Positions 16,241 to 47,358 of a stretch of 47,443 nt of DNA are shown here, piece after piece. The notes under the pieces are model-generated. The model searched no databases and was not told the origin of the DNA. It was given only the letters and a program-made list of their open reading frames with translations. The position numbers and the translations under genes were made by a program. The first letter of the stretch is position 1. Each line of letters begins with the position of its first letter. Origin of the DNA: Gammaproteobacteria bacterium (GTDB lineage: Bacteria > Pseudomonadota > Gammaproteobacteria > QZLD01); NCBI GenBank assembly GCA_004796365.1, contig QZLE01000106.1:1-47443 (forward strand), in the 5' to 3' direction.

Positions 16241-19200
16241 ATGGACCATAAGGAAAATACACCATCCACTTCTTTGCAGCAGCAATTAAGTCCCGAAGAG
16301 TTTGATGCTGTTTTGGAAGAAAATAAATTCCTTCAGGAAAAAATCGAATTAATTAATAAAATCTCTAAATCACCATCATTAGAGGAAGTATTAAATGAAA
16401 TTTTGCTTTTTTTAAATGGGAAGTGGGGATTTAATACGCTATCAAGCCAAATTGTTGATGAAAAAACAAATACCTTAAAATTTTTTACGTTTAATACAGT
16501 CGAAAAATTAGATGGCCCAATAAATGAAGCTATTACTGTAGATGTTCCATTAGAAAAAGAATCATCAATTTCAGCTGCAGTCGCAATATCACAAAAATGG
16601 TTTTATGCGGATTTTGAACGAACAAAGAAAAACCTAGAGCGCTTATCCGAACTTGATCGTAATAGTTTAGACAAAATGGGGCTAATAGAAAACCTTATAG
16701 TCCCTGTTATCGATGAAGGTAAAACAATAAGTGTATTTCACTTAGGATCTACAGATAACAGAACAAATCTTAACAAAGATATATGCAACGAAATATTTGA
16801 TTTTTTAAATAACTTATCATCCCATATTCAGATCATTAAAAACAAAATCGAACAAGAGAACTTAAAGACACAGCAGCAAGAAACACTGGATCTTTTTAGC
16901 AAGCTTGTTAACACCATAAAGCTAGATGAAATTTTAGATATACTGGGCGACGAAATTGATAAGCTAGATAGCGTTGATGGTTATTGCATTAATATTTTCG
17001 ACAAGAATAATAACCAACTAATATGCAACAAAGTTTCCTTATCACAAGAATACAAAATCATGGAGAAGACATATCAAAAATTTGTTTTCCCAGTAAAAAA
17101 GGGAAATGAAAACCATAAAGCAATATATGATAAGCAAGTTATTGATATAGATAACACCAATTTAAGCGGCTTTTCATCAATCACCAGCGCCAGATATATG
17201 GCTTGGAAGATGAAACACTTAATTATCATTCCAATCGCCAAGTTCGAAGATATTGATAGCCAAGCAATCGGCACAATAATGATATTTAATGAGAACAATA
17301 AAGTTGATGGAAAATCTATCCAGACAATTAAAGACAAGCTTTTTTTATTCGTTGATCCAATTGACAATGCCAATAAGTATTCAGACTTTAAAGAAAAAGA
17401 AAGATTAATAGATTCTGCTGTCTCAGAAAGGACAAGATTTTTAAACTTTTTAAATGACGTAAATAACCTCACACTACTAGAAAAAATTTATAAGATGCTC
17501 TCAATGGAGTTTCTTAATCTATATAAATTCGATTTAATTGGAATACTAATTGAAGAAAATGGGTATTTAAAAAGAGTATCAAGCTATTCTAAAGGGGAAA
17601 AATATAAGAATTATCTTTCAGATTGGGACGAGTTTATGGATAAAAACCCATATAAAACTAAGTCCGAAGAAGGTGCATTTTCATTGTGCTATGTAAAAAA
17701 TCAGCATCTATTCTTTCCGTATATTCCCGACCTGCTTCACCTACCAATGTCCAAAAAGGATAGCGGTGCCTTAAATTCAATAAAAAAAACTATATCTACG
17801 CTGCATTTTCCAATCAGAAAAGATGGAAAAGCCATAGGGGTTATAACAGCTAGTAGTCTTGATCAAAAAATAGAGCTTTCTGGCGCAGATATAGAATTCA
17901 TGGAAATACTTGGTTCTTTCTTTGGATCAGCTATTACAAATGCCAAGATGTACACAACTGTAGAGCACCAAAAAGAGGAAATTGAAGCAACCCTGCAAGA
18001 ACTTGAAACAACAAAAGATAAGCTAGTTGAAACCGAAAGAAAACGAGCAGATGCAATGAGAAAAGCTAAAGAAATTGCAGAAGCTTCAGTTGAAGCAAAA
18101 AGTAATTTCTTAGCTAATATGAGCCATGAAATAAGAACACCAATGAACGCAATAACAGGATTAACTTACCTAGCTTTGCGAATGGATCTAACTCCAAAAT
18201 TGGAAGATTATCTGCAAAAAATTAACGCCTCATCAGAAACTCTTCTAGGAATAATCAACGACATTTTAGATTTTTCTAAAATCGAGGCAGGTAAACTTGA
18301 TTTAGAAAAAACTGAGTTTAGCTTGCTTGATATTATTAGTCATATTTCAGATATCTTCGCCACCAAAGTTGCAGAAAAGCAGTTAGAGCTGTTTTTCAAA
18401 CCTGATATAGATATGCCAATTTGTGTTATTGGCGACCCTCTTAGGTTAAGCCAAGTACTAATTAACATTATTAATAATGCTGTTAAATTTACAGAAAGTG
18501 GTGAAATTCAGGTTAATATCTCTACAAAAAAAGCTTCAGAAGAAAAGGTGACTTTAGAATTCAGCGTTATTGATTCAGGAATTGGAATTGATAAGAAAGT
18601 ATTGCCAACCTTATTTGACTCATTTACTCAAGCAAATGGTTCTACATCAAGAAAGTTTGGAGGTACTGGGCTTGGCTTAAGCATCTCAAAACGCTTAGTT
18701 GAGCTAATGGGAGGAAAGCTAATAGCTAAGAGCGCTCTTGGTAATGGAAGTATTTTTTCTTTTACTACTCAATTTGAACCTCCAGAAGGTGGGTTTAATA
18801 ATATTTCAAAAATCGTTGAAAATATTTCGGAAGAAATAAAGGGTAAAAAAATAGTAGTTGCTGCACACAATGATAAGTTCAGTGACTATTTAGCAAATGC
18901 ACTACAAGACCATAATTTTATAGTAGAAACTGTAAGTTCTGGCTCAGAAATATTAGAGATGATGTCCAAATATGCCCGGAACATTCACATGGTAATAGTT
19001 GACACAAGCATTCCTGATGACGGCATTAGTGCTTTGCAGCAGGTTAACAATATTAAAAGCATGAGTGGCGTCAAAACAGCTATCTTAACTGCTTTTGGAA
19101 ATGATGATCACTTATCGTCTCAAATAGTCGAGCAAACAGATTTAATACTACACAAGCCAATAAAAATGACAGAGCTTATCAATAGTATTTGTATCAGCTT

Positions 19201-20113
19201 AGGTTCTGAGCAGGATGGCAATGTTATATATGAGTCATCTGCAAATAAGTGCTCTGCCTACAATGAAATAGAGGTTGAGAAGAATGTTCGTGGAGCAACT
19301 GTTCTTCTCACAGATGACAATAGAATAAACCAACAAGTTGCTTCTGAACTTCTGGAAAGAGTTGGAATCATCGTTGATATTGCAAACAATGGCCTTGAAG
19401 CAGTAAATAAGCTCAAAGTTAATAAATATGATGTAGTTTTTATGGACCTGGAAATGCCTGTTATGGGCGGTATTGAAGCAACGAAAATCATCCGAGATAG
19501 CGAGCATACTAAAGACCAAACCATTATCGCAATGACAGCAAATGCTATGCAAAGTGATCGTACAGAGTCAATTGAAGCAGGCATGAACGATTACATAGCT
19601 AAACCTATTAAAACTGAAGCGCTCTATAAGCTGCTATTACAGTATTTAAAAACAAATAAGAGAAGCAATGTGCTCGACTTTGAATCATCAGGGCATAAAG
19701 ATTTAGAACGTTTAATAAAAACTCATAACATCAAAAACCAAACTATAGAAAACGCTGTTATCCATAATGAAAATCTTCAAATAGTAAATCTGGAAGAAGC
19801 ATTAAGGATGCTAGCCAACAATAAAAAATTGCTAGTTTCTATAGCAAATGACTTTATAGATAGTTACGAAGAAAGTCCTTATATGATTGATAAACATATT
19901 AATAATGATGAATTAACAGATGCCAAAAGGTTGGTGCACTCTATAAAAGGTATTGCCAGCACTTTCGCATGCGATGCTTTTTATAATGCGGCAATAGAAT
20001 TTGAATTAGCCCTAAAGAATAGGCAAAAAAAACTAATAGAGAATACCTTTGATAATTATAAAGAGATTTTCGAAGTCTTTTTAAATGACGTTAGATGGAT
20101 AGCTGGACAATAA
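16241..20113 (+). CDS. Hybrid sensor histidine kinase with GAF-like sensors, two receivers and HPt
   Basis: A 1,290-residue soluble phosphorelay protein without predicted membrane segments. In order: three GAF-like regions (about 45-190, 215-375, 390-570), a coiled coil (about 578-620), HisKA with phospho-acceptor His629 in [15 protein letters not shown], HATPase_c (about 730-855, with the N box [16 protein letters not shown] and G boxes DSGIGID and [10 protein letters not shown]), receiver 1 (about 868-990), receiver 2 (about 1018-1135, Asp1069 in [13 protein letters not shown]) and HPt (about 1175-1290, His1233 in LVHSIKG). Receiver 1 keeps Asp921 and the HKP lysine but lacks the usual acidic pair (AAHNDK). 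The overall plan is of the BarA type but cytoplasmic. No clear ribosome binding site precedes ATG 16241. No cognate regulator is adjacent. Confidence 0.92.
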
Positions 20114-27775: not shown

Positions 27776-27826
27776 TGTGAACTACATCACATTTTTCTTG
27801 ACCGATAATAAGCTTTTGCTTATAAT
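27776..27826 (+). promoter_or_regulatory. Distal CRP-type promoter of the subtilase cluster (P1)
   Basis: A perfect CRP-like palindrome TGTGA-ACTACA-TCACA lies at 27776-27791, with flanking AA and TT also symmetrical. After six bases comes TTGACC (27798-27803), a 17-base spacer, and TATAAT (27821-27826), the best sigma70 hexamers in the cluster. The predicted transcription start is about 27833, placing the binding-site centre near -49.5. The first subtilase gene starts 275 bases downstream and has a second, nearer copy of the same layout. A six-base inverted repeat ATAAGC-TTTT-GCTTAT lies in the spacer and into the -10. Confidence 0.78.
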
Positions 27827-27942
27827 GGCAGCCGCTTAATTTAAGGACACACTTTATTTGCAATTATGCCAATAAGCATCCGTTTTAGAACGCTTAATTT
27901 CTAATACGCAATCTGCTCGGCACATCTTTTATATTATATTTT

Positions 27943-27993
27943 TGTGACGCACATCACATTTTCCTTGATTTTTGCCGCGATGCAACATAGCAT
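27943..27993 (+). promoter_or_regulatory. Proximal CRP-type promoter of subtilase gene 1 (P2)
   Basis: A second perfect palindrome TGTGA-CGCACA-TCACA lies at 27943-27958, followed after six bases by TTGATT (27965-27970), 17 bases, and TAGCAT (27988-27993). The spacing is identical to P1 but the -10 is poor, so activation by the bound protein would matter more. A better TATACT sits at 27993-27998 but without a well-placed -35. The predicted start is about 28000, giving a 5' leader of about 108 bases. Confidence 0.72.
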
Positions 27994-27999
27994 ATACTC

Positions 28000-28033
28000 A
28001 TTAGTATGCAATAGACACGAATTGAATACTAAT
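28000..28033 (+). promoter_or_regulatory. 5' leader stem-loop of subtilase gene 1
   Basis: ATTAGTATGCAAT (28000-28012) pairs with ATTGAATACTAAT (28021-28033) with one mismatch and an eight-base loop. It begins at the predicted transcription start. At the DNA level it could be an operator; as RNA it would cap the 5' end. Genes 2 and 3 of the cluster have different stem-loops at the equivalent place. Confidence 0.55.
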
Positions 28034-28107
28034 GCTGTTTGATGGAATGCAAATAGCTTTACTAGATAGGACACCTTAAAATTCAACCTAATGGAGACTC
28101 TTCTGCC

Positions 28108-31100
28108 ATGAAGACCAAGAAAAGTTTGTATACTAAAGTGGCTTCACTGTTAGTTGCTGGCACACTTTCGACAGCAACATTCGCACAAGCAACCAAATTA
28201 CTACCAATTGATGAAGCAAATAGCAACCTAGACCAAGTAGTAAGTACCTACGGAAATCATGCACCTAGATCATTCCCAAACCTTGATATCAAGCAACTAT
28301 CTGAGCAGGGTAAGATCAAATCTTCCCAGCTTATCGTCAAGTTCAAAGAAGCTAATTCCCAAACTTTTAGCAATGTACTAAATAAGTTCTCTGTAACAAA
28401 CATTGCGAATTTCTATAATCCAACTAAATTTATTTCAGCTTCAAATGAATTATTCTCAAAAATGAAGCTTGTTTCATTTTCTTCAGGTACTGATCTTACC
28501 CAGGCTTTTACCAACCTAATTCAGGATCCAGCGGTTGAATATGTTGCGCCAAACTATGTTTTCACACTCCATGCGACAACTCCTAATGACCTTGATGCAA
28601 ACCTTTGGGGATTGCATAACACAGGCCAAACCAGAACCTTTACAGATGACTACGAAAACGAATACGAAGAAACAGGCACACCAGATGCAGACATAGATGC
28701 TCCAGAAGCATGGGATATCCGCCATGATGCTTCTAATACGATCGTCGCTGTAATAGACACAGGTATCGACTACAACCACAGCGAACTTGCTTCAAACATG
28801 TGGACCAACCCAGGTGAAATCGCTGGGAATGGTATTGACGATGACGGCAATGGCTATATTGATGACGTTCACGGCTATGACTTCGCCGATAAAGATTCTG
28901 ACCCTATGGATGTGAATGGTCATGGTACTCACTGTTCAGGTACAATCGCAGCTCAAGGTAATAACGGCAACAACATAACAGGTGTTGCCTGGAACACTCA
29001 GCTAATGGCACTGAAAGTCTTTGCTGATGATAGCAACGGTGCTTACACCAGCGATATCGTTAACGCAATATTATACGCAGCTGATAATGGAGCAAAAGTT
29101 TCCAATAACAGTTATGGGTCTATTTTCAGTAACTCTGTAGCAGCTGAGATTATTGAAAAGCCAATGTACGATGCTATCAGTGCTGCAAACGATGCGGGCA
29201 TGCTTTTCGTAGCAGCATCAGGAAATGACTCTACAGACCTTGATGGCCGCTATATGAGCACACCTTCTGATCTTGAACTGCCAAATATCATCTCAGTAGC
29301 TGCTTCAAATCAATTTGACGAGCCTGCAGCATGGTTTACAAACTACGGAAAAAATTCGGTTGACATTGCTGCTCCGGGTGAGTTCATCTATAGCACCTTA
29401 CCTGGCAACGCTTATGCAACTTGGAACGGCACCTCAATGGCAACACCTCACGTAACTGGAGCAGCAGCACTGCTAAGCGAGCATGCTCCAGATCTGACAC
29501 CTGCTGAGATCAAAGCCGTATTAATGAATACAGTTGACAAAAAAGATGCTCTTGCAGATACATCAGCAAGTGGGGGTCGCCTTAACCTTCACAGCGCTTT
29601 ATCTGCACTTGAAGGTGGTGGCTTCAGCGGCGAGTGCCAAAGCTTTTCTGATACAAATGATAATCACGTAGCTGCAAACAGAGCGTATAAAGAAACGTCA
29701 GGCCAAACTTGTTGGGGAACATTCTGCTATGGCGGAACTACGACCTATTATGCTGTTGGTAGTGATGAGTCAATTGGAGCATACGGTTTCACAACTACTA
29801 CATTATATGAAAACCAAATCGGCATTTTCTCTAAAACTGAAGACTGCGATACAGGCGGTGCCATTGACGCCCCGCCAGTGCTAACCTTAAATGCTCCACG
29901 TGAGAAATATATTTTGATTGGCACAGACTACACACTACCACAAAATCCCGTTTCTGCAATGGACAGAGAAGACGGTGATATCACTGCATCTGTTGTAGCT
30001 ACTGGTGAAATTGATGTAACTAAAGCTGGTAGATACTCTGTAACATACAATGTAACTGACTCTGCAGGAAACGCAGCAGCACCAGTAGCTATCTACATCA
30101 ACGTTACTGAAACAGATGATGTTCCTCAGGTTATGCTTCAAGGACCTTTCTGTAACATGATGTGGTGTTCTGCACTATTCATGGAAAAAGATACTCCTTA
30201 TGAAGAGCCAGGATATGTTGCTTTCGACCTTATTGATGGCGACCTTACTGATCAAGTATTCATAATCGATGATCCAATGGCTGAAACATCTACTGTAGGA
30301 ATCAGATTCCTAAACTACGATGTTATCGACAGCGCTGGTAATCACGCACCACAGCACACCAACAGACTGGTTGCAGTTCTTGATGCGGAAATGCCACATA
30401 TCTGGGTAAGACCACCTTCAGGTAACTTCTTCAGCTATGCAAATGAATACTATACCTGGAAAAGACCTGATGGAAATGAATCTTGGTACTACAGCCCAAG
30501 TTATGCAGTATTCGACCTAAAAACCGACTTCTACAGTGAAGAAGTTGTTTGGGAAGAGCACGTAACCGTAACTGGCGAAGATGCAGTTGACTACACCAAA
30601 GCTGGCGACTATACAGTTACCTTTACAGCTACTGACCTTGATGGCAACACTACTGTTGAAACACAGGTTATTCATGTACAAGTAGACACTACTGCTCCGG
30701 TAGTTACTCTATGGGGCGACTCTGAAATAACTGTTGAAATTGGTGACATGTACAATGAACCCGGCGGAATTCTTAAAGATGACCTGGATTACTATCCAAG
30801 AGCATATATGAAGTTCTACGATGCTGAAGGTACAGAAATTGATAATCCTTTCAGAAGTTATCTAACTGAAGAAACAACCTACACCATCGAGTATCTTGGA
30901 GAAGATGGAGCAGGCAATCACGCTGTACCTCAATACAGAACTATTAATGTAGTTCGCAGTCACTGGAACCACGCCCCAGTTATGCCAGAAGGAGCTTACG
31001 ACAATTTCGATAATGCTCGCGTCTATGGAACAGCTCTTGATGTTGACGGTGACTTGAACCGAGTAGAAATCGAATTCAATGAAGACGGAAACTGGATTCT

Positions 31101-31971
31101 GATTGAAGACAAAACAGGAACACCTGAGGAGTGGGAATACATTCCAGACTGGTACGGCCAACGAGATTTCCGTATCCGCCTTGTTGATGATAACAACAAT
31201 ATGTATGTATCACCTGTAAATTCTCTACTATCAAGTGCGCCAATCTTGATCACGCATTCGGTACAAATTAACGGCAACACTGTTGTAGTTTCTGGTACAG
31301 CTACAGACGACGAAAATGATATCGAAAAAATTATCGTTAGAATCGATGATGGCGAGTGGTTAAAATGTGAAGGCACAACAAACTGGAGCTGCACATTTGA
31401 AGGTGTCGAATACGGCCATCACACTTATCAAATCCGCAGCAAAGACCAGTGGACATTCTACTACTATAACGACAACAGACACGGATTCACTGTAAATCCT
31501 GCCATACCTCAAATCGATAGCTATAGCTATGAGTTTGAAGATAACAAGCTAGTTGTAACAGGAACCGCCTCTGATACAGATGGCGATCTTACAGAGGTTC
31601 ATCTATTGATCGGTATTGGTGGCATTAAATGTACTGGCTCCAGTTCATTTACCTGTGAAATGCCTGATCTTGTCGATGGGACAACATATGATGTTGCTCT
31701 ACAGGCACGTGATGCATATGGCAACCAAAGCACACCTTTGGAGTTCTCTTTCACTTATGAAGCTCCAATCATAAGCCAATGTATTACAGATACTAACTAC
31801 AACCACGTAGCTGCAGGACGTGCATACCAAGGCGGTCTATCTAACCTGTATGCTTATGCAGTAGGATCTGATGATGACCTTGGGCTATATGGCTCAGTTT
31901 ATTACAGCACCACCACTTCTCTGGAAGAAACATCTCCGGGAGTATGGACCAAAGTAACCAGCTGTAACTAA
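28108..31971 (+). CDS. Secreted multidomain subtilisin-like serine protease, copy 1
   Basis: A 1,287-residue exported S8 peptidase. Signal peptide about 1-26 (TATFAQA). A propeptide follows (about 62-155, with LSEQGKIKSSQLIVKFK). The catalytic domain (about 165-500) has Asp217 (VIDTGID), His272 (GHGTHCSG), oxyanion Asn373 and Ser443 (GTSMATPHV), plus a calcium-loop-like DDDGNGYIDD. A cysteine-bracketed module spans about 510-580. About seven Ig-like modules follow: four of DUF5011/HYR type (DREDGDIT, DSAGN) and three of VSGTASD-x-DGD type. A second cysteine-bracketed module closes the protein (about 1226-1286, from TDTNYNHVAAGRAY). This module resembles short C-terminal modules of secreted depolymerases and may bind substrate. 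No sortase, PEP-CTERM or type IX signal is present. TGGAGA lies 11-16 bases before ATG 28108. Confidence 0.93.
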   Translation: MKTKKSLYTKVASLLVAGTLSTATFAQATKLLPIDEANSNLDQVVSTYGNHAPRSFPNLDIKQLSEQGKIKSSQLIVKFKEANSQTFSNVLNKFSVTNIANFYNPTKFISASNELFSKMKLVSFSSGTDLTQAFTNLIQDPAVEYVAPNYVFTLHATTPNDLDANLWGLHNTGQTRTFTDDYENEYEETGTPDADIDAPEAWDIRHDASNTIVAVIDTGIDYNHSELASNMWTNPGEIAGNGIDDDGNGYIDDVHGYDFADKDSDPMDVNGHGTHCSGTIAAQGNNGNNITGVAWNTQLMALKVFADDSNGAYTSDIVNAILYAADNGAKVSNNSYGSIFSNSVAAEIIEKPMYDAISAANDAGMLFVAASGNDSTDLDGRYMSTPSDLELPNIISVAASNQFDEPAAWFTNYGKNSVDIAAPGEFIYSTLPGNAYATWNGTSMATPHVTGAAALLSEHAPDLTPAEIKAVLMNTVDKKDALADTSASGGRLNLHSALSALEGGGFSGECQSFSDTNDNHVAANRAYKETSGQTCWGTFCYGGTTTYYAVGSDESIGAYGFTTTTLYENQIGIFSKTEDCDTGGAIDAPPVLTLNAPREKYILIGTDYTLPQNPVSAMDREDGDITASVVATGEIDVTKAGRYSVTYNVTDSAGNAAAPVAIYINVTETDDVPQVMLQGPFCNMMWCSALFMEKDTPYEEPGYVAFDLIDGDLTDQVFIIDDPMAETSTVGIRFLNYDVIDSAGNHAPQHTNRLVAVLDAEMPHIWVRPPSGNFFSYANEYYTWKRPDGNESWYYSPSYAVFDLKTDFYSEEVVWEEHVTVTGEDAVDYTKAGDYTVTFTATDLDGNTTVETQVIHVQVDTTAPVVTLWGDSEITVEIGDMYNEPGGILKDDLDYYPRAYMKFYDAEGTEIDNPFRSYLTEETTYTIEYLGEDGAGNHAVPQYRTINVVRSHWNHAPVMPEGAYDNFDNARVYGTALDVDGDLNRVEIEFNEDGNWILIEDKTGTPEEWEYIPDWYGQRDFRIRLVDDNNNMYVSPVNSLLSSAPILITHSVQINGNTVVVSGTATDDENDIEKIIVRIDDGEWLKCEGTTNWSCTFEGVEYGHHTYQIRSKDQWTFYYYNDNRHGFTVNPAIPQIDSYSYEFEDNKLVVTGTASDTDGDLTEVHLLIGIGGIKCTGSSSFTCEMPDLVDGTTYDVALQARDAYGNQSTPLEFSFTYEAPIISQCITDTNYNHVAAGRAYQGGLSNLYAYAVGSDDDLGLYGSVYYSTTTSLEETSPGVWTKVTSCN

Positions 31972-31997
31972 GCACTAATAAAGCAGGAACTATATTT

Positions 31998-32026
31998 AAA
32001 AGGCCTCAATAATGAGGCCTTTTTTT
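31998..32026 (+). terminator. Rho-independent terminator of subtilase gene 1
   Basis: AGGCCTCA (32001-32008) pairs with TGAGGCCT (32013-32020) around a four-base loop and is followed by a T run to 32026. It begins 27 bases after the stop, so each subtilase gene is probably its own transcript. Confidence 0.9.
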
Positions 32027-32052
32027 ATATTCGAAAAAAATTGAGATATTTT

Positions 32053-32103
32053 TGTTAATCAGCTCACAATTTGGTTGATTTGTGCTGCGCCGCAACATAA
32101 ACT
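32053..32103 (+). promoter_or_regulatory. CRP-type promoter of subtilase gene 2
   Basis: TGTTA-ATCAGC-TCACA at 32053-32068 has one mismatch to the palindrome. After six bases comes TTGATT (32075-32080), then 17 bases and TAAACT (32098-32103). The layout matches P2 of gene 1 exactly, and the stretch from TTGATT to GCAACATA is visibly related to the P2 sequence. The predicted start is about 32110. The weaker site suggests lower or differently tuned binding. Confidence 0.68.
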
Positions 32104-32114
32104 TAGCTATAAAG

Positions 32115-32136
32115 AGTATGTAAATCTTTACATACT
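32115..32136 (+). promoter_or_regulatory. 5' leader stem-loop of subtilase gene 2
   Basis: AGTATGTAAA (32115-32124) pairs perfectly with TTTACATACT (32127-32136); only TC separates the arms. It lies at about +6 of the predicted message. In double-stranded DNA this is a 22-bp near-perfect palindrome that could equally be a repressor operator. Confidence 0.6.
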
Positions 32137-32233
32137 AAGGCACTTGATGGACGCAAGTTGCACTTCAGTTATGAAATGGATTATTTGGCTAAATAATTAG
32201 CTTAGAAGTACAAAACTAAATGGAGACGCGACT

Positions 32234-35200
32234 ATGAATATTGGAAATAAGATCAAAGGCTATGCCACCACTATAGCAATAATTGCTATATCAATTTCCT
32301 CAATAGCTTTTGGGGAAACACCTAAAGAAACAAACTACTTCAATCAGGATAGCAAGAATTTTTTGCAAAGTCTGACGTCAGCTAACAGAAAAAACACAAC
32401 CACGCCACCACGTAACCAAATAAATTTACTTGAAATGAGCGAACAGGGACTAATTAAATCTTCCCAGCTTATCGTGAAATTCAAAAGCTCAGCAGTAGCA
32501 GCCATGCCGCAAATTAATTCTGTTTTGCAAAAATACAGCATTAAGGAGATATCTGACTTCTACTCCCCTGGTAAATTGCTATCTGCCTATAAAAAGGCAT
32601 TCAGCAAATTAAAGGTTATATCCTTCGCAAAAGGAACAAACCTTAATATGGCCTTTAGGGAATTGCAGAAAGATCCTGAGATTGAATATGTTACACCAAA
32701 TTTCACCTTCACAAACCAGGCCACACCAAATGACCTAAACTCACGTCAGTGGGGACTAAATAATACGGGCCAGAATATTATTTCCTATGACTACGAAGGA
32801 ACCGAACTAACCAGAACAGGTACAACTGATGCTGATATTGATGCAACTGAAGCCTGGGATATTAGGCAAGATGCTGAACGCACTGTTATTGCAGTTATTG
32901 ATACCGGCGTAGATTACCTGCACGAAGATCTTGCTGGTAATATCTGGACCAACCCTGGTGAAATTGCCGGCAATGGTTTAGATGATGATGGCAACGGCTA
33001 CATCGATGATGTTCATGGCTATGACTTTGCTGACAACGACTCTGACCCTATGGACGTAGTTGTAAATTACGACTTTGAAAACCAGCATAAATGGATACCT
33101 GGTGATTTTACTACCGGAGGTCATGGAACTCACTGCGCAGGAATTATTGCCGCTATCGGCAACAACGGTAAAGGAATAACAGGTATAACCTGGAATACTA
33201 AAATAATGGTTCTAAAGATATTTGGAAACGGAGAGCCATTTGCCTTCACTTCGGATATCGTTAGTGCAATTATTTATGCAGCAGATAATGGCGCCAAGAT
33301 CTCTAATAACAGCTATGGTTCAACAGTATCTAACTCAGAATGGGCAAACGCTGGCAATAAACCCTTGTTTGATGCTATTTCAGCTGCAAATGATGCGGGA
33401 ATGTTATTTGTTGCAGCAGCAGGAAATAGCGGCGTAGACCTTAACACTGAGGCCTATTCAAGCCCGGCTGGACTTGAACTGCCAAACATTATTTCAGTTG
33501 CAGCATCTGATGAAAATGACGAGCTTGCAAGGTTTTCAAATTTTGGCTCAAGCATGGTTGACTTAGCGGCACCTGGTGTTGATATATTCAGCACATTCCC
33601 AGGAAATTCCTACCATACAATGAGCGGCACATCTATGGCCGCACCACTTGTAGCCGGTGCTGCTGCACTAATGCTGGAAGAGAATAGCGACCTAACACCA
33701 GCTGAAATAAAAGCTATTCTAATGAATACAGCCGATGCGCCCAGCACTTTGGCAGAATCATCTGCGAGTAATGGCCGACTAAATGTTCATAGCGCTTTGG
33801 AGTATTTGCAGCAAACTGTTGATGGTAGTTGCGAAAGCTATTCTGCTACTAACGACTCTCATGTATCAGCAGGCAGGGCATACAAAGAAACCAGCGGGCA
33901 AACCTGCTGGGGCGCCTTCTGCCTAGGCGGAACTACGACCTATTATGCTGTTGGCAGTGATGAGTCAATTGGACCATACGGTTTCACGACTACTGTATTA
34001 TATAAAAATGAGCCAGGTATATTTTCTAAAGCCGAAAATTGCCAAATGGGTGGGTCTAATGATGCCCCTCCGGTAATCACACTACAAGGTGATGCAGAAA
34101 AACACATTATAGCCGGCACCCAGTATGTTCTTCCGACTTTGGAGGCAACCGCTATAGATAGGGAAGATGGTGATATCACTGCCGCTATCATCAAAACCGG
34201 AAGTTTTGATAAAAATATACCAGGCAGATATTTAATCACCTACACCGCAAAAGACTCTGCTGGCAACAAGGCAGCTCCAGTAACCAGGGCTATCAATGTT
34301 CTAGAAAAAGCTTATGCACCAGGAGTTGTTGTAAATGGACCTACCTGTAATGGTTGGTTCTGCATACCTCAAAAGATGGTTAAAGGTACTGAATATCACG
34401 AATATGGATATATAGCTTTTGACCTTATTGATGGAGACCTAACCGATGACGTATACATCGTTGATAACAAAATGGACGATACAACTACTGAAGGCTTCAG
34501 ATTCCTTGATTACCGCGTAACAAACTCAAATGGTATTGAGGGTGGTAGCGTTAATGGTGCAATACGTCTGGTTGCAGTTCTTGATGCTGAGCTTCCGCAT
34601 ATCTGGATTAGAAATTCTGAAGGTGGCAACTATTTCCAGTATGCCAATGAGTTTTACACATGGAAAAGACCAGAAGGTGAATACTGGTATTACAGCCCAA
34701 ATTTCACCGTAATTGATATGAAAACAGAGCGCTTCTACGATCCAGAAAATGCTGATGAAGGCAGGGACTACACTGGCTGGGGTACATATTCAATCTCTGG
34801 GCAAGATGAAGTTAACTATGCAACAACTGGTGACTACACAGTAACGATTACTGCTACTGATACTGAGGGCAATACCACTTTTGCGCAGCAGATAATTCAT
34901 GTAGTTGAAGATACTACTGCACCTGAAATCACCTTGTTGGGTGAATCTGAAATAGATATGGAGATCGGCGAGTATTTTCAAGACCCATGGTTCGAAACAT
35001 CTGATGACCTTGACTTCTACCCAAGCATTTCCAGAAAGTACTTTGATGAGACAGGAACAGAGATTGAAAACCCATTCTCAGGCAGAGTTACTACTGAAGG
35101 AACATTCACTATAGAATACCTTGCGCAAGACGGGGCTGGAAATCAGGCTGAGCCAAAATATCGCACAGTAAATGTTATCCGCAGTCATTGGGATCATGCA

Positions 35201-36169
35201 CCGATCTTTGAAAGCTGGAGAATTAATAACTATGCTGAGGCTAAAATCACAGGCACAACCTTTGATATCGACTCTGACCTTAATCGTGTAGAGATTGAAT
35301 TTAATGGTGACGGCAACTGGATCCTGGCCAATGGTATTGAGAACTTCGAATATATACCGGATTTCTACGGCAAGCGAATAGTTAGATTACGCGTTGTTGA
35401 TAATAACGGAAATATGACTGTTACCAATTCATATGAATTCTATCCAACAGCACCGGTAATCATCGAAACCCGCAATCTGCAAATCAACGGTAGCAGCATT
35501 ATTGTTACAGGAACAGCTTCTGATGCTGAAAATGACATCACTAAAATTCAGATCAGAATAGACAGCGCTGAATGGGTAACCTGCAACGGCACCACCAACT
35601 ATACCTGTGCTATTGATGATCTAGATTTTGGTGAGCATTATTATAGCATCAGGGGTATCGACTCACATGAAGTTATATATAGTTCAACACCAAAGAAGTA
35701 TTTTGATATAACTCCTGCAATGCCAGAGATTGACAGATATGAATACACATTTGATGGCAATAAACTGGTAGTAACTGGTAACGCATCAGATGCTGACGGA
35801 GACCTTGCATCTATTCTTCTGATGGTTGTTCAGGGTGATAGCTATCAGTGTACAGGCACAACCTCATTTATCTGTGAGATGCCTGGACTCATTGATGATG
35901 AAACCTATGATCTTGTATTAGAGGCTCGAGATGCATTAGATAATCGTAGCGCGCCAGAGATCTTCTCATTTACCTATGAAGAGCAAATTCAAACATCATG
36001 CTTTACAGCAACCAACAACGAGCATATTGACGCAGGAAGAGCTGAATTAAGATACGGCATCCTGGTTTATGCTAACGGTTCTGGAAGCTACCTTGGAATG
36101 GGTACCAATGAAACATCCCTTGAAGAAACTTCTCCAGGAATATGGAGCAAAGTTAACACCTGTCAATAG
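32234..36169 (+). CDS. Secreted multidomain subtilisin-like serine protease, copy 2
   Basis: The most divergent paralogue, 1,311 residues with the same plan: signal peptide about 1-27 (SSIAFGE), propeptide with MSEQGLIKSSQLIVKFK, catalytic Asp223, His297, Asn398 and Ser467, a cysteine-bracketed module (about 535-605), Ig-like modules, and a terminal cysteine-bracketed module. About 20 extra residues (including NYDFENQHKWIPGDFTTG) are inserted directly before the catalytic GHGTHC, next to the active site, and are absent from copies 1 and 3. The C-terminal module is shorter: the VYANGSGSYLGMGTNETSLEE segment replaces the longer YAVGSDDDLGLYG form. TGGAGA lies 9-14 bases before ATG 32234. The likely role is digestion of external protein, with a substrate preference different from copies 1 and 3. 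Confidence 0.92.
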   Translation: MNIGNKIKGYATTIAIIAISISSIAFGETPKETNYFNQDSKNFLQSLTSANRKNTTTPPRNQINLLEMSEQGLIKSSQLIVKFKSSAVAAMPQINSVLQKYSIKEISDFYSPGKLLSAYKKAFSKLKVISFAKGTNLNMAFRELQKDPEIEYVTPNFTFTNQATPNDLNSRQWGLNNTGQNIISYDYEGTELTRTGTTDADIDATEAWDIRQDAERTVIAVIDTGVDYLHEDLAGNIWTNPGEIAGNGLDDDGNGYIDDVHGYDFADNDSDPMDVVVNYDFENQHKWIPGDFTTGGHGTHCAGIIAAIGNNGKGITGITWNTKIMVLKIFGNGEPFAFTSDIVSAIIYAADNGAKISNNSYGSTVSNSEWANAGNKPLFDAISAANDAGMLFVAAAGNSGVDLNTEAYSSPAGLELPNIISVAASDENDELARFSNFGSSMVDLAAPGVDIFSTFPGNSYHTMSGTSMAAPLVAGAAALMLEENSDLTPAEIKAILMNTADAPSTLAESSASNGRLNVHSALEYLQQTVDGSCESYSATNDSHVSAGRAYKETSGQTCWGAFCLGGTTTYYAVGSDESIGPYGFTTTVLYKNEPGIFSKAENCQMGGSNDAPPVITLQGDAEKHIIAGTQYVLPTLEATAIDREDGDITAAIIKTGSFDKNIPGRYLITYTAKDSAGNKAAPVTRAINVLEKAYAPGVVVNGPTCNGWFCIPQKMVKGTEYHEYGYIAFDLIDGDLTDDVYIVDNKMDDTTTEGFRFLDYRVTNSNGIEGGSVNGAIRLVAVLDAELPHIWIRNSEGGNYFQYANEFYTWKRPEGEYWYYSPNFTVIDMKTERFYDPENADEGRDYTGWGTYSISGQDEVNYATTGDYTVTITATDTEGNTTFAQQIIHVVEDTTAPEITLLGESEIDMEIGEYFQDPWFETSDDLDFYPSISRKYFDETGTEIENPFSGRVTTEGTFTIEYLAQDGAGNQAEPKYRTVNVIRSHWDHAPIFESWRINNYAEAKITGTTFDIDSDLNRVEIEFNGDGNWILANGIENFEYIPDFYGKRIVRLRVVDNNGNMTVTNSYEFYPTAPVIIETRNLQINGSSIIVTGTASDAENDITKIQIRIDSAEWVTCNGTTNYTCAIDDLDFGEHYYSIRGIDSHEVIYSSTPKKYFDITPAMPEIDRYEYTFDGNKLVVTGNASDADGDLASILLMVVQGDSYQCTGTTSFICEMPGLIDDETYDLVLEARDALDNRSAPEIFSFTYEEQIQTSCFTATNNEHIDAGRAELRYGILVYANGSGSYLGMGTNETSLEETSPGIWSKVNTCQ

Positions 36170-36196
36170 CACATAATAATCATTAATAAATTTGTT

Positions 36197-36223
36197 AAGC
36201 CCCTTTTTTTAGGGGCTTTTTTT
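36197..36223 (+). terminator. Rho-independent terminator of subtilase gene 2
   Basis: AAGCCCC (36197-36203) pairs with GGGGCTT (36212-36218) around an eight-base T-rich loop and runs into a T tract. It begins 28 bases after the stop codon. Confidence 0.88.
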
Positions 36224-36246
36224 CAGCTTCAACAATATGAATTTTT

Positions 36247-36295
36247 TGTGAACCACGTCACATAAATTGACGCCCCAGTCTAAATACCTTATAGT
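36247..36295 (+). promoter_or_regulatory. CRP-type promoter of subtilase gene 3
   Basis: A perfect palindrome TGTGA-ACCACG-TCACA at 36247-36262 is followed after four bases by TTGACG (36267-36272), a 17-base spacer and TATAGT (36290-36295). The predicted start is about 36302, with the site centre near -47.5. The hexamers are better than those of gene 2 and of P2 of gene 1. Confidence 0.75.
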
Positions 36296-36360
36296 ATGCT
36301 ACGTATACCAACCAGTACGTATGCATGGCATTTGTCCTGCAAAACCCGTAGTAGGACAAA
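36296..36360 (+). promoter_or_regulatory. Two 5' leader stem-loops of subtilase gene 3
   Basis: The first pairs ATGCTACGTA (36296-36305) with TACGTATGCAT (36316-36326) with one bulged base. The second pairs TTTGTCCT (36331-36338) perfectly with AGGACAAA (36353-36360) around a 14-base loop. Both lie in the roughly 130-base untranslated leader. Confidence 0.55.
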
Positions 36361-36431: not shown

Positions 36432-39400
36432 ATGAAGATCAAAAAATGTATTTATAATAGTATTGCTTCAGTAATGCTTGTCGGTGCAATTACAGCATCT
36501 GCAAATGCTCAAACTGATACTTCTATATCCAACCAAACTTTACCTAATGCTTTTATTCAAGAATTCAGTGGCTCAAATAATAATGACCTACTGACATCTT
36601 CAGCTGTTGAAATTAGCAAACTAAGTGAACAAGGAAAGATTAAATCATCTCAACTTATTGTTAAATTTAAAAACAATACCGCACCATCTTATTCTTTTGG
36701 AGCTCTTGCTAATTTTAGTGTTGAAAACATTAAAGACTTCTATACTCCAAAAAACGTACTTGCTGCCAGTAAAGAACTATTTAGTAAATTAAAAGTAATC
36801 TCATTTTCGCAAGGAACAAATCTAGGTAAGGTATTTAAAGATCTTATGAAAGACCCTGAAGTTGAATATGTTGCACCAAACTATATATTCGAACTTCAAG
36901 CAACAACTCCGAATGATTTAGATTCTGCTCTTTGGGGACTAAATAACACTGGGCAAACTAGAAGTCATACCGACCCTGATGGAAACCAATTTAACGAAAC
37001 CGGTACTGTAGACGCTGACATAGATGCTCCAGAAGCATGGGATATCCGCCATGATGCAAACAATACAATTATCGCTATAATCGATACAGGTATCGATTAC
37101 AACCACAGCGAGCTAGCTTCTAACATGTGGACAAATCCTGGCGAAATAGCGGGAAACGGCATTGATGATGATGGAAATGGATACATAGATGATGTTCACG
37201 GTTATGACTTTGCAGACAACGACAATGACCCTATGGATGTAAGTGGTCATGGAACACACTGCTCTGGAACTATCGCAGCTCAAGGTGACAATGGAAACAA
37301 TATCACAGGTATTGCTTGGAATACTAAGCTAATGGCACTTAAAATATTTGGCGATGAAAGTAGCGGTGCTTTTACTTCTGATATTGTTGATGCAATTTTA
37401 TATGCTGCTGATAATGGTGCAAAAGTTTCTAATAACAGCTATGGCGCAAATTTTCCAAATAGTGTTCTAGCTGGCATTGTAGAAAAGCCTATTTATGATG
37501 CAATCAACGCAGCAAATGATGCTGGAATGTTATTTGTTGCTGCCGCTGGCAACGAATCTAGAAATCTTGATGACCATTGGATGAGCACTCCATCTGACCT
37601 TGAGCTTCCAAATATCATTTCAGTTGCTGGTTCAAACCAGTTTGATGAGCCTGCATCTTGGTTTACAAACTATGGTAAAACATCTGTTGATATAGCAGCT
37701 CCGGGTGAATTTATCTATAGTACCTATCCGGGTAATACATTTACCACCATACATGGAACATCTATGGCTGCACCACATGTAACAGGAGCAGCAGCTCTAC
37801 TAAGAGAAGAAAACCCTAATCTTAACCCTGCTGAAATCAAAGCTATTCTGATGAATACAGTTGATAGAATTGATGCTCTATCTGAAGTTTCAGCTAGTGG
37901 TGGAAGATTAAATCTATTCAATGCTCTTTCTGCTGTTAAGGGCCAAGGTGGAGAATGCGAAAGTTATACTTCAACAAATGACAGCCATGTATCAGCCAGT
38001 AGAGCAACAAAAGAAGTTACAGGGCAAACTTGTATAGGCACTTTCTGCTTTGGTGGAACAACTACGTATAAGGCTGTTGGAACTGAAGAATCGCTTGGAC
38101 CTTATGGGTTCACTACTACTACCCTATACGAAAATCAAGCAGGGGTATTTTCAAAAAATGATAATTGCCAAATGAGTGGCGATATTGATGCTCCTCCAGT
38201 TCTTACCCTAAACGGCGACCGTGAAAAATTCATTATGGTTGGTTCGGATTACTCTCTTCCTGCTATTCCTGTTACTGCATATGATAGAGAAGATGGAGAT
38301 ATTTCCGAATCAATCACAACTGCGGGTAGCTTTGATGCACAAACACCAGGTAGATATATAATTACTCACAGCGTAACCGATTCTGCTGGAAACAAAGCTG
38401 CAAGCGTATCAAGATATATACACGTAACAGACAAAGATGATCCACCATATATTGGTTTGTTAGGGCCTCAATGTAACATGTCATTCTGTTTACCTATCAA
38501 AATGGAAACTGGAACTCAATATCAAGAGCCGGGGTACATTGCTTATGATATTGTAGATGGAGATCTATCAGACCAAGTATTCACTGCTGGGGATTCGATG
38601 GAAAACACATCAGAAGAAGGCATTAGATTCCTTTATTACAGCGTATTAGACAGCACTGGAAATCAAGGATACACCAGTAGTTATAGAACAATAGCCGTTC
38701 TTGATCCTGAAATGCCACATATTTGGGTAAGACCACTAGAAAAAAGAAGCCTATATGAATTTAATAGCTATTCTTATGATCACTATACATGGAGAAGATC
38801 AGAAGGCGATTCAACCTATGTTAATCCTCAATTCGCAGTTTTCGATCTAAAAACCGAATTCACAGATAGCGAGCAAGTTAACTGGGATGAAGCTGTTACT
38901 GTTACAGGAAGCGATGAGGTTGATCTAACTGTAGTTGGTGATTATGTAATCACTTTCAGTGCAACGGACCCAGATGGCAATACAACAACTGCTCAACAAA
39001 CAATTCATGTGGTTGAAGATACCGAACCACCTGTTATTACCCTTTTTGGTGATTCAGAAATAACAGTTGAAATTGGTGATAAGTTTGTTGAGCCAAATGG
39101 TTCTCTTTACGATGAGCTGGATAGATATCCAACAGCAACCAAGAAAATCTATAATGAAGCTGGTGAAGAGATATCAAATCCATTTTATACATACTTAACT
39201 GAAGAAGCTGTTTACACTGTAGAGTATCTTGGTGAAGACTCCGCAGGTAACCAAGCAACACCTCAATATAGAACTGTAAATGTTGTACGTAGCCACTCGA
39301 ATCATCCACCTCGTTTCATTTACCCTTATGGCTATAAACAGCCTATCGATACTGAAATATTTGGATCCACTATTGATGTAGATGGAGACTTTGAACGCAT

Positions 39401-40301
39401 CGAGATTGAGTTTAATGAAGATGGCAACTGGATTACTATCGCAGAAACTCTTGAATGGAGTTATAAACCAGACTGGTATGGTGAAAGAACATTTAGAATC
39501 AGAGCTGTGGATGCCAATGGCAATATGACTTACTTATACAATGATGCAAGGGCACTTAAATCTGTTGCTAAAGTCATAATTGAAAGCAGATCATTCCAAG
39601 TAGATGGCTCAAGCATTACTATATCTGGTACTGCATCTGACCTGGAAAATGACATTCAAGAAATCAGTATTTCGATTGATGATGGGGAATGGATTTCTTG
39701 TACAGGCACAACAACTTGGACCTGCCCAACTATTGAAGGCCTGAGTATTGGGCAACACTACTTTAAAGTACGTGGAAAAGATAAGTGGTACTACTATGTT
39801 GATGGTTCAGCATCCCAATTTACTATTGAACCAGCTATTCCACAGATTGATAGCTATGACTATTCATTCGATGGGGACTCACTAGTAGTAACAGGTACTG
39901 CATCTGATGCTGACGGAGACCTTTCTGAAGTTCACCTCCTTGTTGGTCTTGGAGGCTTCCAATGTACTGGTACAACTTCATTTTCATGTGTAATGCCTGA
40001 TCTTGTTGACGGTACAACGTATGATGTTGCTCTTCAAGCTAGAGATTCATATGGAAATGAGAGCACTCCTCTAGAATTTTCATTCACATTTGAAAATCCT
40101 GTCGGCGAATGTATTACTGATACTAACTACAATCACGTAGCTGCCGGTCGAGCATACCAGGGTGGTCTTTCAAACCTATATGCTTATGCAGTTGGTTCTG
40201 ACGATGACCTAGGATTATATGGTTCACAGTACTACAGCACAACAACATCACTAGAAGAAACTTCAAATGGTGTTTGGACAAAAGTAGCTAGCTGTAACTA
40301 G
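36432..40301 (+). CDS. Secreted multidomain subtilisin-like serine protease, copy 3
   Basis: A 1,289-residue paralogue, closest to copy 1 in protein sequence. Signal peptide about 1-26 (SANAQ), propeptide with LSEQGKIKSSQLIVKFK, catalytic Asp218, His273, Asn374 and Ser444, a first cysteine-bracketed module (about 513-583), Ig-like modules and a second cysteine-bracketed module almost identical in protein to that of copy 1. At the DNA level it is clearly richer in A/T at third codon positions than copies 1 and 2 (for example ATT, AAA and CTT where copy 1 has ATC, AAG and CTC). This suggests a different history or different selection on codon use. The first module has KAVGTEESLGPYG instead of YAVGSDESIG. 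TGGAGA lies 8-13 bases before ATG 36432. Confidence 0.92.
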   Translation: MKIKKCIYNSIASVMLVGAITASANAQTDTSISNQTLPNAFIQEFSGSNNNDLLTSSAVEISKLSEQGKIKSSQLIVKFKNNTAPSYSFGALANFSVENIKDFYTPKNVLAASKELFSKLKVISFSQGTNLGKVFKDLMKDPEVEYVAPNYIFELQATTPNDLDSALWGLNNTGQTRSHTDPDGNQFNETGTVDADIDAPEAWDIRHDANNTIIAIIDTGIDYNHSELASNMWTNPGEIAGNGIDDDGNGYIDDVHGYDFADNDNDPMDVSGHGTHCSGTIAAQGDNGNNITGIAWNTKLMALKIFGDESSGAFTSDIVDAILYAADNGAKVSNNSYGANFPNSVLAGIVEKPIYDAINAANDAGMLFVAAAGNESRNLDDHWMSTPSDLELPNIISVAGSNQFDEPASWFTNYGKTSVDIAAPGEFIYSTYPGNTFTTIHGTSMAAPHVTGAAALLREENPNLNPAEIKAILMNTVDRIDALSEVSASGGRLNLFNALSAVKGQGGECESYTSTNDSHVSASRATKEVTGQTCIGTFCFGGTTTYKAVGTEESLGPYGFTTTTLYENQAGVFSKNDNCQMSGDIDAPPVLTLNGDREKFIMVGSDYSLPAIPVTAYDREDGDISESITTAGSFDAQTPGRYIITHSVTDSAGNKAASVSRYIHVTDKDDPPYIGLLGPQCNMSFCLPIKMETGTQYQEPGYIAYDIVDGDLSDQVFTAGDSMENTSEEGIRFLYYSVLDSTGNQGYTSSYRTIAVLDPEMPHIWVRPLEKRSLYEFNSYSYDHYTWRRSEGDSTYVNPQFAVFDLKTEFTDSEQVNWDEAVTVTGSDEVDLTVVGDYVITFSATDPDGNTTTAQQTIHVVEDTEPPVITLFGDSEITVEIGDKFVEPNGSLYDELDRYPTATKKIYNEAGEEISNPFYTYLTEEAVYTVEYLGEDSAGNQATPQYRTVNVVRSHSNHPPRFIYPYGYKQPIDTEIFGSTIDVDGDFERIEIEFNEDGNWITIAETLEWSYKPDWYGERTFRIRAVDANGNMTYLYNDARALKSVAKVIIESRSFQVDGSSITISGTASDLENDIQEISISIDDGEWISCTGTTTWTCPTIEGLSIGQHYFKVRGKDKWYYYVDGSASQFTIEPAIPQIDSYDYSFDGDSLVVTGTASDADGDLSEVHLLVGLGGFQCTGTTSFSCVMPDLVDGTTYDVALQARDSYGNESTPLEFSFTFENPVGECITDTNYNHVAAGRAYQGGLSNLYAYAVGSDDDLGLYGSQYYSTTTSLEETSNGVWTKVASCN

Positions 40302-40331: not shown

Positions 40332-40358
40332 GCAAAGCCCCTAAATGAGGGGCTTTGC
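40332..40358. terminator. Terminator shared by subtilase gene 3 and the lipoprotein gene
   Basis: GCAAAGCCCC (40332-40341) pairs perfectly with GGGGCTTTGC (40349-40358) around a seven-base loop. The T tract after it is short (TTATATA). The genes on either side converge, so the hairpin can serve both. Confidence 0.8.
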
Positions 40359-45900: not shown

Positions 45901-47358
45901 TTATTCTGCAGTTAACATCTTTTTATAGTATAGGCTTCTCGAACTATCTATATCCTCAAGTTTTCTGGCAATAACCTTTATCGCTAAATCAAGATTATTA
46001 ACGTTATGACCGCAATTAATAAGCGCAGTTAATATCATCTCAGCATCTTCAATGAATCCATGATTACTAAACCGAATAGAAAGATCTACCATGTGCGGTG
46101 TATCAAGTTGCGCATTATGATTAGTAAGCTTCAGGTACTCTTTAAATATCTGGTTGATATCCGCAACTATACCTGGAGCATTGCTATTTAGCTTAAAAAG
46201 CTTGTTGCACACAGACATAAAATCTAGTGAGTCCGGCTTGTGTTTTTCAATAGTGAATAACTTCTTGAGTGCATCAAGATTATCAGGGTGATCTCGTAAA
46301 ATCTGATTGTAGATCTTTTTGGCCTGATCAAACTCTAGCTGCCCCATAAGCGTATTAGCTTCAGCCATAAGCTCGGCAAGGTTATCCTGTTTGACATTTT
46401 CATCCATATACTCACGATCAACACCTTTTTTAAACAAGGACATAAACCCAGCAATAGCACCTCCAGCCAATAGCCCACCAGCATGGGCCATATACGCTAC
46501 ATTACTTCCCTCAACAAAGAAGTATTGCAAAAACTCATTGCCCAGCCACAGAGGGAACATAATCAGAGCCGGCGCTTTAACATAGTTGAAGTAAAATAGA
46601 ATGTTGTAAAAGAACCTAATCCTACGCAACCCGTAACTAATGGCATACATCCCCATAAGCCCGGCAATAGCACCAGAAGCACCAACCAAAGGGGTTCTGC
46701 TGGTCATATCGAACAACATATAAAAGGCAGTAGCACAAGCACCAGAAAATAAATAAAAGGGTAAATAACGTAATGATCCGAATATATTTTCAACTGCTAT
46801 CCCCAAAAAAAGAAGAAACACCATGTTACCAACAAGGTGCATTATTCCACCATGCAAAAATTGAGTGGTTAAATATGTAATTGGGCGTTTCTCTTTGGGT
46901 ATAAACCCGTAGCTATAAATAAGGGATTTATTAAATATATTCTGCAACTCTTCCCTATTCTCATTCCACTGCTGGTACTCTTTCATATCACTGGTGATGA
47001 TGCTTTTTTTGTCCAGCAACTCATCTAAAAATAGATCATCAGATGAAATCATCATCAAGCCCATCATCGCTGGCGGTTCTTTACTAAATTTCTGGGTGTC
47101 TTTCAAAAATGATATTCTTTCCTTATCATCCCCACTCTCACCACGCCCTGGAGTATTTTCCAGATATTTAATATAGGCGGGAATTTCGATTTTAGCTAAA
47201 CCAGAATCAGAGTAATGCTTTGCTGCTTTATCATAGGCATCGTTATCACCACTCTGACCGATAAAAAACACCAGAGTGTTAATCAGAATCAGTAAAAACG
47301 TGATTATCGGAAAGCGTTTAAGTTCTAGCTTTTTTTCAAGAGGTATTAATAGCAGCAT
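45901..47358 (-). CDS. Rhomboid family intramembrane serine protease with long insertion and TPR-like tail
   Basis: A 485-residue membrane protease. The first membrane helix (about 16-34) is followed by a charged, largely hydrophilic insertion of about 125 residues (35-158) before the second helix, much longer than in GlpG-type rhomboids. The catalytic parts are intact: HxxxN at 174-178 (HLVGN), Ser228 in LVGASGAIAGLMG, and His292 in YMAHAGGLLAGG. After the last helix (about 310), residues 330-485 look like helical repeats (LMGQLEFDQAKKIYNQILRDHPDNLDALKKL). The start is ATG 47358. The remaining 85 bases to the window edge show no gene. It should cleave within or near membrane segments; its substrate is unknown. 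Confidence 0.9.
   Translation of the reverse strand: MLLLIPLEKKLELKRFPIITFLLILINTLVFFIGQSGDNDAYDKAAKHYSDSGLAKIEIPAYIKYLENTPGRGESGDDKERISFLKDTQKFSKEPPAMMGLMMISSDDLFLDELLDKKSIITSDMKEYQQWNENREELQNIFNKSLIYSYGFIPKEKRPITYLTTQFLHGGIMHLVGNMVFLLFLGIAVENIFGSLRYLPFYLFSGACATAFYMLFDMTSRTPLVGASGAIAGLMGMYAISYGLRRIRFFYNILFYFNYVKAPALIMFPLWLGNEFLQYFFVEGSNVAYMAHAGGLLAGGAIAGFMSLFKKGVDREYMDENVKQDNLAELMAEANTLMGQLEFDQAKKIYNQILRDHPDNLDALKKLFTIEKHKPDSLDFMSVCNKLFKLNSNAPGIVADINQIFKEYLKLTNHNAQLDTPHMVDLSIRFSNHGFIEDAEMILTALINCGHNVNNLDLAIKVIARKLEDIDSSRSLYYKKMLTAE

Follow-up and report, generated by a model that had tools for sequence, protein, structure and literature searches.

The window, that is, the whole stretch of DNA analysed (47,443 nucleotides), carries three protease genes, named here P1, P2 and P3, and a terminator-like hairpin lies downstream of each of them:

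28108–31971, plus strand: protease P1, 1287 aa, with a signal-like N-terminus, an S8 subtilase domain and Ig-like repeats
31998–32023, plus strand: intrinsic-terminator-like hairpin 3′ of P1, 11 pairs, T-rich tail
32234–36169, plus strand: protease P2, 1311 aa, S8 subtilase with Ig-like repeats (PF00082, E = 3.8e-60)
36197–36218, plus strand: intrinsic-terminator-like hairpin 3′ of P2, 8 pairs, T tract
36432–40301, plus strand: protease P3, 1289 aa, S8 subtilase with Ig-like repeats (PF00082, E = 9.9e-59)
40332–40358, plus strand: bidirectional terminator-like hairpin 3′ of P3, 11 pairs

The Pfam matches of P1 are PF00082 (E = 2.2e-61) and PF16403. The three proteins belong to the S8 subtilases, as PF00082 matches each with an E-value of 1e-58 or better and the Asp, His and Ser catalytic motifs are present in all; signal-like N-termini also occur in all three. 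P1, P2 and P3 are paralogues, with identities to P3 of 55–66%. Since a terminator-like hairpin follows each protease gene, each is regarded as its own transcription unit, and P1, P2 and P3 are most likely transcribed alone, as monocistronic messages.

A C-terminal segment, approximately C-x-TATN-x2-H-x3-GRA ... TSLEE-T-x-G-x-W-x-KV-x-x-C, is common to P1, P2 and P3, where no Pfam match covers it. It is also present on contigs C88, C100, C111, C112 and C82 of the host genome and on contigs C68, C72 and C188 of G001, the sole genome of the same family; in both genomes it ends many secreted proteins, and it is possibly a secretion or anchoring domain. Two other genes of the window encode a hybrid sensor kinase with GAF, HisKA and HATPase domains, two receiver stretches and Hpt (16241–20113, plus strand), and a Rhomboid-family protein whose similarity to rhombosortase (TIGR03902) stays below the threshold (45901–47358, minus strand). 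The S8 protease of contig C7 ends in a GlyGly-CTERM-like tail, which would fit it as a substrate of this Rhomboid-family protein.

Upstream of the three protease genes there are four composite sites, S1 to S4, each combining a putative CRP/Vfr palindrome with a putative sigma70 core promoter:

27776–27791, plus strand: S1 palindrome, putative CRP/Vfr site, perfect TGTGA-N6-TCACA, distal promoter of P1
27798–27826, plus strand: S1 putative sigma70 core promoter, TTGACC-17-TATAAT, 11/12 consensus, the top pair of the region
27943–27958, plus strand: S2 palindrome, putative CRP/Vfr site, perfect, proximal promoter of P1
27965–27993, plus strand: S2 putative core promoter, TTGATT-17-TAGCAT, weak, 8/12
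32053–32068, plus strand: S3 palindrome, putative CRP/Vfr site, one mismatch (TGTTA), 5′ of P2
32075–32103, plus strand: S3 putative core promoter, TTGATT-17-TAAACT, weak, 8/12
36247–36262, plus strand: S4 palindrome, putative CRP/Vfr site, perfect, 5′ of P3
36267–36295, plus strand: S4 putative core promoter, TTGACG-17-TATAGT, 10/12 consensus

The full layouts are TGTGAACTACATCACA-N6-TTGACC-N17-TATAAT at 27776 (S1), TGTGACGCACATCACA-N6-TTGATT-N17-TAGCAT at 27943 (S2), TGTTAATCAGCTCACA-N6-TTGATT-N17-TAAACT at 32053 (S3) and TGTGAACCACGTCACA-N4-TTGACG-N17-TATAGT at 36247 (S4). Three of the four palindromes (S1, S2 and S4) are perfect, and S3 has a single mismatch. Two tandem candidate promoters precede P1, S1 and then S2; P2 and P3 have one each. 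The first-pass annotation had described these four sites, and all of them were found exactly in place, with the same coordinates, spacings and hexamers; the centres that it gave for the CRP sites, −49.5 for S1–S3 and −47.5 for S4, follow on the assumption that the −10 hexamer begins at −12. For S2 there is an alternative, better −10, TATACT at 27993–27998, which would put the CRP centre at −54.5. In addition, S2 and S3 share the sequence TTGATT..TG..GC....GCAACATA outside the motifs; because of this common sequence they are probably not independent and should count as about one event.

The palindrome was searched for in the genome of the host, an uncultured gammaproteobacterium; this genome is a draft of 2.77 Mb in 201 contigs and is 83% complete. 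Perfect TGTGA-N6-TCACA occurs 20 times, compared with 0 for a reversed-pattern control and about 3 per genome expected from base composition. When up to one mismatch is allowed, the signal fades to 73 palindromes versus 48 in the reversed control. As this excess is only modest, S3 taken alone is weak evidence, and its weight comes from its place. The occurrence of three perfect sites inside 8.5 kb has a P of about 0.03 under random placement. Perfect palindromes were also found upstream of an nrdA-like gene (contig C50, L004 1501) and an nrdD-like gene (contig C55, L006 165), which are ribonucleotide reductase genes, and further ones precede other secreted-looking proteins.

Twelve S8 loci are present in the genome. 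Of the 20 perfect sites, six are in the 300 bp preceding one of these loci (P of about 2e-13; P = 5e-8 with sites confined to an assumed intergenic share of 12%): P1 has two, and P3, the C25 and C111 genes and one of the C100 genes have one each, so that three of the six are outside the window. Upstream of P2 the site has one mismatch, and before the remaining C100 gene it has two. No CRP site was found in the upstream DNA of the S8 genes of C7, C82, C112 and C184; the paralogue on contig C88 is cut off upstream by the end of its contig. Contig C100 (L128 959–10271) encodes two giant S8 subtilases in tandem, of 1443 and 1563 aa. In the S8 tree, which has weak support elsewhere and three rows with long branches, the C25 gene is a distant paralogue placed with C7 on a separate long branch.

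A CRP/Vfr orthologue is encoded on contig C105, beside trpD and trpC. Pseudomonas vfr has the same neighbours. The protein matches the NCBIfam equivalog NF008732 with 355 bits (cut-off 266), has P. aeruginosa Vfr as its top PDB match and shares 63% identity with E. coli CRP (reference sequence checked against PDB 1g6n). The recognition helix (RExVGR) and the cAMP-pocket residues are conserved, and AR1 is identical to that of E. coli CRP. The sole other PF00325 match in the genome (L017) has an ExxSR recognition helix and is FNR-like by inspection; on account of this different helix, an FNR-type regulator was rejected. Contig C38 encodes a receiver fused to a single class III nucleotide-cyclase domain, which may supply the cAMP. 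A single CRP-family regulator for the cluster had been proposed earlier; the orthologue is indeed present, and the sites also precede S8 genes on other contigs. From the palindromes and the regulator gene we infer that cAMP-bound CRP/Vfr would bind one palindrome before each member S8 gene and two before P1. Direct control of S8 subtilase genes by CRP/Vfr is thus proposed as very probable.

The position of the palindromes relative to the promoters was examined by scoring sigma70 hexamer pairs on both flanks (40) of all 20 perfect sites, at offsets from 0 to 47. Four pairs scored 9.5 or more, and all of them were at offset 3–6 (S1 6, S4 4, C25 3 and C2 4), with none at the other offsets. Their hexamers match 10–11 of the 12 consensus positions, the promoters outside the window being TTGACT-17-TATAGT (C25) and TTGACA-16-TATAGT (C2). 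The chance of a strong pair at offset 3–6 is 0.2% per flank, which gives a P of about 2e-6 for four cases. The layout was defined after the sites of the window had been seen, and the fair test is therefore confined to the remaining 17 sites with their 34 flanks, which yielded two matches (C25 and C2; P of about 0.0025). TTGA with at least 4/6 of the −10, spacer 17 and offset 3–7 occurs at 0.33% of intergenic positions, and, taken singly, the sites had P values for their pair score at offset 3–7 of 0.0007 (S1), 0.0013 (S4), 0.021 (S2) and 0.036 (S3). These results support, as a layout beyond chance, a CRP site that directly abuts a TTGA(C) −35, with an offset of 3–6, and two promoters outside the window confirm it. 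The C2 gene is a non-protease: on contig C2 (L181 6808) the abutting CRP promoter, with the consensus TTGACA, is followed by a signal-peptide-like frame of about 30 aa, and the next downstream frame encodes a 510-aa protein with no Pfam match. These frames are possibly a gene remnant.

Relative to the best predicted promoter, the CRP centres are at −49.5, −47.5, −46.5, −46.5, +1.5 (C111) and +17.5 (first C100 gene), and none of the sites scored has CRP at −41.5 or −61.5. No convincing promoter was found for the second C100 gene. Of the shared blueprint noted earlier, the abutment to the −35 at offset 3–6 stands; the exact spacing of 6 and 17 holds at three sites only, and the S8 genes of C100 and C111 deviate.

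The pattern palindrome-N0-30-TTGAC-17-TANNNT was found five times across 369 genomes of the class; three of these occurrences are in the host genome, and the count is not normalised for CRP sites per genome. With a looser pattern, offset 3–6 was observed in 5 of 18 matches in other genomes (P = 0.07), and there is no clear class-wide offset trend. No orthologous clusters for phylogenetic footprinting were found. In G001, subtilase-domain matches have at most 44% identity; its C72 gene, which has the C-terminal domain of the host proteases, presents a perfect CRP site upstream with the centre at −55.5. The relatives L030 and L126 have perfect CRP sites 5′ of S8 genes, from which the layout is absent. 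The nearest named full-length relative (39%), from a Microbulbifer MAG, has no CRP-like site upstream at up to two mismatches.

According to the mechanism that we consider the best explanation, CRP/Vfr would dock in the window right beside the −35 of a sigma70 promoter, the 22-bp site ending 1–3 bp before the hexamer, and, bound against the promoter, would occlude it and so repress transcription. The sequence allows either sign of control, and direct CRP/Vfr control leaning slightly to occlusion is put forward tentatively, at somewhat less than an even chance. The lean is due to the heterogeneous position of the sites and to hexamers near the consensus. Strict spacing is needed by activators and not by blockers. 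Occlusion would explain, with known physics, the near-consensus hexamers, the variable position and the sites that overlap the predicted starts. In E. coli sigma70 promoters, optimal activation by CRP occurs at −41.5 and −61.5, and the alpha C-terminal domain is argued to fit poorly between CRP and sigma at −49.5 (PMC2859248). The repression rule R1 of PMC5772556 spans most of the observed positions; the activation rule A2 spans −70.5 to −28.5 too, and most E. coli CRP sites in that set are activating (133 of 169). Against repression, CRP abutting the −35 and not overlapping it is a poor steric block, and the weak hexamers of S2 and S3 (8/12) look as if they belonged to activator-dependent promoters. 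The earlier suggestion of either an unusual contact with RNA polymerase or repression holds as to the position, which is off the classical sigma70 sites (PMC2859248), and the wider family leans slightly to repression.

A somewhat less probable reading, although a real possibility, is activation of these sigma70 promoters by CRP/Vfr bound at −46.5 to −49.5, immediately next to the −35; the alpha C-terminal domains would then lie on the DNA upstream of the CRP site and contact AR1 from there, an arrangement intermediate between Class II promoters and E. coli aer. This reading would explain why the hexamers of S2 and S3, which share the −49.5 position, are weak, and it would match what CRP/Vfr usually does at exoprotease genes: in P. 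aeruginosa, Vfr activates mep72, which encodes a secreted protease (PMC4222646). The AR1 identical to that of E. coli CRP agrees with it, and −49.5 is optimal for CRP at the sigma28 promoter of aer (PMC2859248); at sigma70 promoters, however, CRP near −50 activates very weakly (PMC2859248, citing Gaston 1990). The centre also varies by 3 bp among the promoters, which would place CRP on another helical face; near-consensus hexamers are present in four of the six pairs, and the C111 and first C100 sites are at or past the best predicted start. That such activation of sigma70 promoters from −46.5 to −49.5 forms a recurrent class of the lineage beside Classes I and II, serving a family of secreted proteases as well as one or more unrelated genes, appears rather unlikely. 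It is improbable that the listed hexamers are not true core promoters and that CRP acts from a Class I or II position on other −10s. Class I and II promoters do not need a good −35, and candidates are TATACT of S2, TATAAA of S3 at N39 and TATACC of S4 at N41, the exact spacing for −61.5. On the other hand, no good −10-like hexamer was found in the S8 sites at the Class II position, N20–23, where the mean −10 score is −1.9 to −4.2 versus +0.9 at N29; at the Class I position, N40–43, there are only 4/6 matches (S4 at N41 and S2 at N43), and S1 has none. With no consistent −10, and with pairs at offset 3–6 above chance, the Class I or Class II re-reading was rejected. Most improbable is that the upstream regions resemble each other only because the genes were duplicated, the layout having no function. 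P1–P3 are indeed paralogous and the similarity of S2 and S3 extends past the motifs, but S4 aligns to them mainly within the palindrome, and the untranslated leaders have diverged with the sites still near perfect. Duplication does not explain the recurrence of the layout, since the C25 gene is a distant paralogue and the C2 frame has no Pfam match.

A CRP/Vfr regulon containing exoproteases is ordinary, and it is plausible that cAMP and CRP/Vfr govern the breakdown of environmental protein in the host. Less ordinary is the consistent abutting geometry, found at two independent promoters outside the window. CRP spacing rules derive mostly from E. coli, in which sigma70 promoters with CRP near −50 show almost no activity. 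Since every strong promoter flanking a palindrome is 3–6 bases away, in four cases, the host genome tests whether these rules hold elsewhere or the promoters are repressed; sigma70 activation by CRP placed at about −49.5 would be a novelty.

The sigma28 consensus of the aer type is TAAA-N15-GCCGATAA. Inspection by eye with this consensus showed no sigma28 −10 at the aer spacing (N28) in S1–S4, where the letters are TTATAATG, ATAGCATA, ATAAACTT and ATAGTATG, and aer-type sigma28 promoters were rejected. E. coli aer resembles the present sites in its lone CRP site, centred 49.5 bp before the start (PMC2859248), but its promoter elements are of sigma28 and the hexamers of S1–S4 are sigma70-like. 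Class I (−61.5) and Class II (−41.5) promoters likewise have a palindrome upstream of a sigma70 promoter, and AR1 is conserved; here, in contrast, CRP abuts the −35 (−46.5 to −49.5), without overlap and not one alpha-CTD width upstream. The mep72 system (PMC4222646) differs in its M72 protease, compared with the S8 subtilases described here, and in its degenerate Vfr site overlapping the −35, compared with the near-perfect palindromes of the host. The Vfr regulon of P. aeruginosa resembles the present case in the Vfr orthologue beside trpD-trpC and in the direct control of secreted protease genes, which is predicted here, and the Vfr palindrome consensus, ANWWTGNGAWNYAGWTCACAT (PMC8160232), is the same as the host palindrome.
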